From positions 11,773,754 through 11,837,753 of the forward strand of contig NC_088649.1 in assembly GCF_964019385.1 (NCBI RefSeq): DNA of 64,000 nucleotides. The letters are read 5' to 3'. This stretch comes from Sycon ciliatum (Eukaryota > Porifera > Calcarea > Leucosolenida > Sycettidae). Shown one piece after another: positions 49,301-52,300 of the stretch; the stretch's first letter is position 1; each line of letters starts with the position of its first letter. A model generated the notes under the pieces. That model did not search any database and was not told the origin of the DNA. It saw only the letters and a list, made by a program, of their open reading frames with translations. Position numbers and translations under genes: made by a program.

Positions 49301-52300
49301 ATATGCTTGAGACACGTCGAGCGATCATATCAGGGATGTTCCGTAGTATGGATGGTGGGTGATTGGACATGGCGTTGGCGTAGAGAGGTGTGTCTCCAGG
49401 TTTACGATACGGCTGGAATTTCCCAGTGTCGAGGCTGAGCGTGACGTCTAGGAATATTATTATTACATGTATTATTATGTAGGTAGGTACTCAATCTGTG
49501 GACAGAACTGTTTTATCCTTTGTGAACTCATCAGCGCAGCACAGAGAAAATGAGGCCGAACCTGATAGCAATGAAAACTAAATTTTCCAAAGCCAGATTT
49601 AAACCAGGCCCGAACGTACCTTGCCAAAGTGCTCAAACTGACGAGTAAGTGAGCTCTGCATAACGCAAACAGCAAAGGCACTACCCCACACGAGAGTGCT
49701 CAACTGCTACCAGAGCAGAAGCGAAATACTCGATCTGCGGACAGAATTGTTTCGTCCTTTGTGGACTCATCAGCGCTGTGTAGGTAGATATGATGTCCAC
49801 CTATTGTTGCTGGTGATGTCTGTACCGGTGTTGGCACTGGTGCTATGCTGCATTAGTCGTGCTTTATTATTAATTTATTATTAATGGTGCGCTATGGTGC
49901 ATTTCAGTAATCTAGATGCACGGTTTTTGAAAAAAATTGCAAGGTCCTTAAGTCTTTGAAGATTTTCTCAACGCTAGTGAGCTTACCTTCCCTTCACAGT
50001 CTGCCTATGTGCTGGTCATTTGTTTTAAGCGAGCTCTATATGTCAGGCAGGTTTGGGAACTCTGAAAGATTTTGGTGGTTCTGAGCTGATAAACCATGGT
50101 TTTTTTGAGATTTCGCTTCTTGTACTGTGCAGAGTGTCACTGTGTATGTATGCTACATTGCGAGAGTTCTGGCTGTGTTTACGGGGCATTTGTACATGTA
50201 CAATGAAATCTTGGTTTGAGAGCATGCTAGAAGTCCGTATGGAACTCTGGTGCAAGTGATTCCACTGTCCATGTTTTGAATTGCGTTATAGGCGTTATCG
50301 TGTTAGAATTGGACTCCCATTGTTACTGTTATTGGTGCTGGGGCTAGTAATGCTGATGCTAGGTCTAGTTCTAGTGCTGTTGCTGGTCATGCTGGTTCGC
50401 TGCTGTTGTTGAGTGTTGGCATTAGTGCTGGTGCTGGTGATACAGTCAGACCTCGCTTAATTAACCGCACACGTCCGTTCCCACAAAAATATCCGGATAG
50501 GCGAGGGAATCGGATAATCGAACACACATACATGTACGGTATGTATGCATGGCATATGCTGTAAATCGGTAACCAACCATTTTCTTCCGGATGACGAGGG
50601 ATCCGGATAAAAGAGGACGGGATAAGCGAGGTCTGACTGTATTGGTGCTGATGATGCTGATGCTGATGGTTTTCAACTTTTCGGACTCGCTTGTATTGTT
50701 TCTGTATGGTGGTTTTTGAAAATCATGCATTAACTGCTTGTGTTTTCCTTCACCTGTTTCTGTATTGTTGGTCTGTTTGCAGAGCTTCACTGGGAGAGCA
50801 AAGCTTTTTCTTCACCACCTGATACAGCGTGTGGGATTCTGGGGTATATTCCTGGCGGCCTCGGTACGTGCTAGTGCTACCAGTATTGTTTTCGTTTTTG
50901 TTGTTGTTGTTGTTGTTGTTGTTGCTGCTGCTGCTGCTGCTGCTGCTGCTGCTGCTGCTGCTGCTGCTGCTGCTGCTGCTGCTGCTGCTGCTGTTGTTGC
51001 TGCTGCTGCTGCTGCTGTTGTTGCTGTTGTTGCTGTCGTTGCTGTTGCTGTTGTTGTTGTTGTCGTTGTTGTTTGCCAGGCTGTATGCAGAGTTGCACAC
51101 TCAGGCTTGGTAGCTTGTTTACTCCACTGGACTGTATACTGTAGTGTCCTGTACTCGCTATGTTCTGTCCATTGAATCTACTCAACCTCTGTCAAACCAT
51201 GTACACTTTCCAGTTTGTCATTCTTCATCTTATTCTTATAGTGTCTACTAGCAGCTCAACTGACTCGCTTTACTCTCTGTTGCTCACAGATCCCAATCCA
51301 CTGTTTAACTTAGCTGGTATGGCTTGTCTGTTTTGCTCACAGATTCCCAATCCACTGTTTGACTTAGCTGGTATAACTTGTGGACACTTCCTAGTGCCGT
51401 TTCCCACATTCTTTGGAGCAACTCTGCTGGGCAAAGCTGTTGTCAAGATGCACCTCCAGGTAAGCAGCAGGACTGTCAGACACGTGTTGCCGCTACACCC
51501 ATGCATGCTGTGCATGATGTGCAAGTAGTACGGGTAGTTTGGACGGGTAGTGTGGACGGGTAGTTTGGACGGGTAGTGTGGACGGGTAGTTTGGACGGGT
51601 AGTGTGGACGGGTAGTTTGGACGGGTAGTGTGGACGGGTAGTGTGGACGGGTAGTGTGGACGGGTAGTTTGGACGGAGGACCGAGAGTGTGCAGTTCAAG
51701 CTGCATGCAGTGCGCCCAAAGCTGGGCTATGGGCTGGGTTATGATCAAATGACTCAAGTCACAGTGCAGTTACTAGCACTGTGTAGTCGTTGTGGAGGTT
51801 ATGATCAAGTGACAGTGCAGTTACTGTGTAGTCGTTGTGGAGGCTCACGGCTGTCAGGCCAGCGCCCCCTGGCCGCTTGACTTCTTAACGGACTTCAATG
51901 TCCACAACAGTACATGTCGATGTGATGTTCGTCTCTCACATAATATGGGCCACAACCAGCTAAAACATGTCTTTGGGTGAAAAATTTCAAATTTTGTTTT
52001 CCTCCAGAAAACAGTTCTTGGGACCTTACTTGACCTCTTGAAGGTGATACAGGGCAGAAAAGTAGTCTACAACTGCCCCAAACACCGCTTTCAAAATATG
52101 TACTTTGAAATAGAAAATGACAGTTTTCGCACAGTCTGACACAAAGAGACAAACTATTACTTAGTGGCTTTTGTGGCGGAGCACAATACAACGGAACTAA
52201 AGATGTTGACACCGACTTGAGCATGTCAAAGGCATGGCCCACGTTCTCCCTGGAAAGCAACACGATGCGCTGGGCGGCGTTGCACTTGCATACTCTTTCG

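Follow-up and report, generated by a model that had tools for sequence, protein, structure and literature searches.

A Probable Decayed Retrozyme Copy Beside a Penelope-Like Remnant in the Sponge Sycon ciliatum

Introduction

Two hammerhead-like motifs lying about 240 bp apart on the same strand raise the question of whether they delimit a retrozyme and, if so, what kind of enzyme put it there. The locus lies in a stretch of 64,000 nucleotides of the Sycon ciliatum genome (NC_088649.1, forward-strand positions 11,773,754 to 11,837,753), referred to here as the window, in whose numbering all coordinates are given. An original prediction, made from the sequence, had described an intact and a decayed hammerhead as parts of a retrozyme-like unit and had proposed that a Penelope-like remnant next door could have supplied the machinery.

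In the published model, retrozymes are transcribed, self-cleaved by their hammerheads, ligated into circles and reverse-transcribed by an autonomous element (PMC7229834). Animal retrozymes co-occur with Penelope-like elements (PMC7229834), which are regarded as likely or strong candidates for their mobiliser (PMC7229834, PMC7761336). Metazoan retrozyme RNAs measure approximately 170–400 nt, coral repeats 220–240 bp, and target-site duplications, when present, exceed 4 bp (PMC7229834); those of Nematostella are 15 bp long (PMC4918200). Among the criteria we used for a metazoan non-LTR retrozyme are hammerheads in tandem every 150–450 bp, many copies in the genome, and the absence of protein coding and of LTRs, a primer binding site and a polypurine tract.

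Results

Hammerhead Motifs in the Window

Both strands of the 64 kb were scanned for CTGANGA followed by GAAA with a stem II of 3 bp or longer. Three motifs were found, at 49750–49773 (minus strand), 15408–15431 (plus) and 48185–48211 (minus), and in all three, stem III likewise measures 3 bp or more. The first and second belong to what we call hammerheads A and C, the third to the Penelope-like remnant. Hammerhead B, the decayed partner of A, was missed by the scan because its GAAA reads AAAA. Core positions (C3, G12, C17) are numbered according to the hammerhead convention.

Hammerhead A lies on the minus strand, with C3 at 49773 and the scissile C17 at 49740. All parts of its core (CUGAUGA, GAAA, GUC) are in place; the loop ACAAA caps a stem II of 4 bp (GUCC/GGAC), and AUUC caps a stem III of 3 bp (ACA/UGU). 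C3 lies only 5 nt inside the 5′ end of the element, and the 5′ strand of stem I is reduced to CAGCG, which pairs at four of five positions with CGCAG after the cut site (one A.A mismatch). Target DNA may already make up the first two letters of CAGCG, as it does the remainder of that strand. Hammerhead A had been predicted to be intact, which holds for the core and fails for the ribozyme as a whole, given the lost outer part of the stem I 5′ strand.

Hammerhead B (C3 at 49534 to C17 at 49501, minus strand) keeps CUGAUGA, but G12 has changed to A (GGAU-AAAAC), stem II contains two G.U-type pairs and stem I a C.A mismatch, so that its description as decayed stands. The C3 positions of A and B are 239 nt apart, and the two are 88% identical over 50 nt in the self-comparison, in agreement with the predicted pair of related same-strand hammerheads about 240 bp apart. 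At 49 kb, A thus has a core without the outer part of stem I and B has the upstream strand without an intact core; for this reason the copy, judged by its sequence, is not expected to release a monomer.

Hammerhead C (C3 to C17 at 15408–15441, plus strand), which the original prediction did not include, has both core and stem I. Its stem I is a 5-bp pairing of CUGCG with UGCAG, past which an internal loop and a further helix, CUCA/UGAG, can be made out by eye; all core positions are present, and a G.U pair lies at the base of stem II. CUGCG is the 5′ partner of stem I in B and C, the copies with an intact upstream body.

A 20-mer, CTGATGATGGTCACACGAAA, occurs at 12771–12790 (plus) and 12401–12420 (minus), once on each strand and with a spacing of about 370 bp. 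It resembles a hammerhead core but has no stem II of 3 bp.

Covariance Scores and Folding

No Rfam family reached its gathering score anywhere in the 64-kb window. In a focused Rfam search the type I hammerhead model RF00163 (gathering score 34 bits) was the top match for both A (23.7 bits) and C (20.4 bits, model positions 1–45), in each case below gathering. The original prediction had named a covariance score below cutoff for A as grounds for refutation, and formally the score is below it. The motif in the Penelope-like remnant best matched the type III model RF00008, with 25.9 bits against a gathering score of 48.5. When short stretches containing A, B, C or the Penelope motif were folded by minimum energy, none of the structures showed a complete hammerhead.

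These scores leave room for the explanation that the motifs are hammerhead-like by chance. First-order Markov simulations of the window (60 runs) yielded on average 0.33 motifs with stem II (maximum 3) and 0.05 with both stems II and III (maximum 1), against the three observed; moreover, copy C and the unit at 49 kb are alike well past the ribozyme. Chance is an unlikely source of the motifs, and we give it next to no credence. The evidence for a repeat family, given below, is judged stronger than the missed Rfam cutoff.

Exact hammerhead patterns had no matches in either a viral or a genome contig collection; these collections are viral and prokaryotic and the result carries little weight, being what is expected for an animal element. 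In the literature collection searched, no paper paired a hammerhead ribozyme with a sponge genome.

An Insertion at 49 kb and a Dispersed Relative

The unit at 49 kb is a single insertion bounded by 9-bp direct repeats. In element orientation (minus strand) it reads CTACCTACA (49779–49787), then 292 bp from 49778 to 49487, then CTACCTACA again (49478–49486). The 292 bp, delimited by self-BLAST, nhmmer and the flanking repeats, comprise the 5′-truncated hammerhead A, one 239-nt period and hammerhead B. The repeats coincide with the ends of homology and are a putative target-site duplication. As a control, we counted flank pairs with a word of 9 bp or longer in common: 14 of 8000 drawn at random had one, as did 165 of 9095 taken at the same distance; we attribute the higher same-distance rate to the richness of the window in microsatellites.

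The 239-nt monomer has a GC content of 46.9%. No stop-to-stop open reading frame of at least 90 amino acids overlaps 49487–49778, a weak test for 292 bp, which hold 97 codons at most. The self-comparison found no repeat pairs inside the unit besides the hammerhead itself and no long direct repeats.

A second insertion lies 34 kb away on the opposite strand, at 15302–15454 (plus; 91% identity over 155 bp, nhmmer E 4.9e-36), and consists of a 5′-truncated body followed by hammerhead C. About 50 of the 155 bp aligned in the self-comparison are ribozyme, and about 105 bp of body are also shared; the unit is therefore a repeat family and not two chance motifs. The 5′ end of insertion 2 falls in the middle of the body (nhmmer moves it out to 15290), and this sole other copy within the window is truncated before any second hammerhead. 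Both insertions share the 3′ end GATTGAGTA and differ in their 5′ ends. A target-site duplication was rejected for insertion 2: none is clear, and the best word common to its flanks is 6 bp.

Hammerhead-bearing tandem repeats can also be satellites, which propagate through unequal exchange or as DNA circles and need no retrotransposition, and the first animal examples of hammerheads were satellites of this kind in newts (PMC7229834). In the 64-kb window, however, no array exceeds one monomer plus one hammerhead, and the copies are scattered, point in opposite directions and end alike at 3′ but not at 5′, with a 9-bp direct repeat at insertion 1. A satellite origin is accordingly highly improbable, and we read the 49-kb locus as a decayed copy of one monomer plus hammerhead, not as a live tandem unit.

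The window also contains a 34-bp tandem repeat at 62320–63174 (25 copies, 98% matches). At 8253–8430 several miRNA models match both strands below gathering (best 80.7 bits against 171); this is more suggestive of a foldback element than of a miRNA. Pfam searches of eight pieces elsewhere in the window assigned families to two of them, an exon of a ubiquitin carboxyl-terminal hydrolase at 11277–11381 (UCH, E 9.4e-9) and an open frame with a C17orf113-type zinc finger at 55101–55457 (E 1.4e-7). A second putative exon of the former was picked out by eye at 10685–10792 and has no Pfam match.

The Neighbouring Penelope-Like Remnant

A Penelope-like remnant does adjoin the unit, as had been predicted, but as an independent insertion. 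It occupies 48141–49453 on the minus strand, beginning 33 bp past the 3′ end of insertion 1 in the same orientation, and is flanked by 14-bp direct repeats, TGTAATAATAATAT, at its 5′ end (49454–49467) and 3′ end (48127–48140). In the corresponding control, 5 of 4000 pairs drawn at random and 14 of 8948 at the same distance had a word of 14 bp or more in common.

The remnant is 5′-truncated and frame-broken and can be read as three pieces in differing frames, covering the end of a reverse transcriptase region, a GIY-YIG-like endonuclease and a 3′ tail. The first two pieces, which have no library match, resemble the end of the reverse transcriptase region and what follows it, and the Penelope-like assignment leans largely on general traits of the family. 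For the third piece, Pfam gives a GIY-YIG match that is weak and below cutoff (E 0.12). Two of the three pieces were searched against the PDB, giving one match at E 1.9 and none for the other, and NCBIfam returned nothing useful for the three. Dam-like matches (E 0.012 and 0.028 in Pfam and NCBIfam, below cutoff) were set aside as too weak. The endonuclease fragment had no matches in the viral contig collection.

In its 3′ tail the remnant carries its own hammerhead-like motif, with C3 to H17 at 48211 to 48176 (minus strand) and a GUU cut site. Its sequence is unlike that of A, B and C, and the stem I arms UCAC/GUGA and CUUGAU/AUCAAG are visible.

This arrangement suggests a further alternative, in which the unit is a pseudo-LTR (pLTR) piece of a Penelope-like element and not an independent retrozyme. 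Tandem Penelope copies have hammerheads in their pLTRs. Penelope-like elements bear hammerheads and can be arranged in full or partial tandems (PMC11167929); the remnant here is close by and runs in the same direction, and it has lost its 5′ part, so that our comparison covered what is left of it and no 5′ pLTR of its family. Against this, the remnant has its own direct repeats and its own, different hammerhead-like motif, no similarity between it and the unit was detected by self-comparison or nhmmer, and none of its sequence was detected beside insertion 2. We consider a pLTR origin unlikely. Since it has its own repeats, its own motif and no detected retrozyme sequence, we read the remnant as a separate 5′-truncated insertion and not as the source of the retrozyme unit.

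A palindrome of 161 bp at 10888–11048, with arms 87% identical, lies apparently in an intron of the ubiquitin hydrolase gene. The outward ends of both arms are the tail of the same Penelope-like family (nhmmer E 1.2e-4 and 0.0054). By analogy with the anole Penelope element PAc, which extends both strands in vitro (PMC11167929), it could have arisen by copying onto both strands of the target, which would leave an inverted product with its tails facing outward.

Discussion

Class Membership

We conclude that 49487–49778 is probably (probability about 0.8) a decayed genomic copy of a metazoan-type non-LTR retrozyme, that is, a short, non-coding, non-autonomous retroelement. This bears out the predicted retrozyme-like unit, in the form of a decayed copy, and rests on the 239-nt spacing, the GC content, the lack of a 90-amino-acid open reading frame, the 9-bp repeats and the dispersed 5′-truncated relative with the same 3′ end.

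Compared with metazoan non-LTR retrozymes as characterized in PMC7229834, the family is alike in its type I hammerhead with short stem III (A and C have the type I core, with Rfam scores below gathering), its small repeat (239 nt vs. 170–400 nt), a GC content below 50%, a putative target-site duplication of more than 4 bp and the presence of a Penelope-like element in the same genome. GC content is somewhat higher here than the 45% given in one figure legend. The differences are that the 49-kb locus, with its two hammerheads 239 nt apart, has only one full monomer plus one hammerhead, and that both of these hammerheads are incomplete. As to copy number, the 64 kb contain two insertions; as to LTRs, the hammerhead itself is the sole repeat pair that the self-comparison found in the unit. 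Animal retrozyme RNAs are also described as more than 70% paired (PMC4918200), in contrast to 64.4% predicted for the 239-nt circle here, a figure from a decayed copy and no higher than in shuffles (64.0%). At least equal stability was reached by 15 of 200 shuffles (a set of 100 gave z −1.8), and we rejected the idea that the circle folds with unusual stability.

Two other classes were considered and rejected. Plant LTR retrozymes resemble the unit in having paired hammerheads that flank a small unit without a long open reading frame, but PMC4918200 gives them type III hammerheads, spacings of 600–1000 nt, 4-bp target-site duplications and LTRs of about 350 bp, whereas the unit matches type I, with a spacing of 239 nt, a 9-bp direct repeat and no long direct repeats. 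Hammerhead-bearing Penelope-like elements such as PAc (PMC11167929) are alike in 5′ truncation, a fixed 3′ end and an AT-rich target. Unlike them, the unit has no coding region for a reverse transcriptase and GIY-YIG endonuclease, and its body and hammerhead are unrelated to those of the neighbouring remnant.

Junctions and a Proposed Mechanism

Both insertions end 13–14 nt beyond the cut site (49501 to 49487 in insertion 1, 15441 to 15454 in insertion 2), and the template must therefore have been continuous across it. Such a 3′ end cannot come from a free linear monomer cut there, but it can come from a circle that has been sealed or from a transcript left uncleaved. The Penelope-like copy ends 35 nt beyond its own putative cut site.

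The behavior of PAc in vitro offers a point of comparison. There, reverse transcription starts internally on the RNA and produces the genomic “tail,” and AT-rich DNA is cut with a preference for ATT (PMC11167929). The coordinates given in that paper suggest that the start point lies beyond the hammerhead cut. Hammerhead cleavage is unnecessary for PAc, and unprocessed RNA is its dominant substrate (PMC11167929); by analogy, an uncleaved transcript would be favored over a circle as the template here.

The targets are TAA/ATT-rich. TAATAA or TTATTA occurs within 22 nt of the 3′ junction in both retrozyme insertions and also within the direct repeat of the Penelope-like copy; across the window it occurs in 553 of 63,978 22-nt segments (0.9%), a post hoc figure, since the motif was picked after the flanks had been viewed. 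For the Penelope-like copy, the stretch 48113–48134 lacks the motif because it begins inside the direct repeat, and the wider 48120–48150 has it. A single AT-rich patch is common to insertion 1 and the remnant, which leaves two independent sites and not three. No TAA/ATT motif was seen by eye in the outer flanks of the palindrome at 10888–11048, which counts against a universal rule. We regard the TAA/ATT-rich junctions as a lead and not as proof.

A possible, tentatively held explanation of these junctions is that retrozyme insertions are primed like Penelope “tails,” with a fixed internal start 13–14 nt past the cut site, a template spanning the cut (a sealed circle or uncleaved transcript) and TAA/ATT-rich targets shared with the adjoining Penelope-like element. 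We did not meet this idea in passages of PMC7229834, PMC4918200, PMC7761336 and PMC11167929, and make no claim that it is absent from print.

The sequence of events could be as follows. Intact relatives would be transcribed as oligomers or by read-through, and their type I hammerheads would cut these RNAs into 239-nt monomers, which a host ligase would seal into circles. The reverse transcriptase of an autonomous retroelement would then copy the template into a nicked TAA-rich site, beginning approximately 13–14 nt downstream of the ribozyme cut site. At insertion 1, copying would have run for about 1.2 monomer lengths and halted within stem I of the next hammerhead; at insertion 2, it would have halted in the middle of the body. 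Our first guess for the mobilising enzyme is a Penelope-like element. The adjoining remnant had been put forward as supplier of the machinery; being 5′-truncated and frame-broken, it could not have served itself, but intact relatives of it could.

Implications

Animal retrozymes are a class already described in the literature, to which the 49-kb unit adds, enlarging the known set by one member. With two retrozyme insertions whose 3′ ends are readable and a Penelope-like copy with readable ends in a single window, the question of the mobilising enzyme becomes one for a junction survey of 3′ ends and target motifs across both families. Penelope-like priming, if true, would establish that animal retrozymes are moved by a Penelope-type enzyme.
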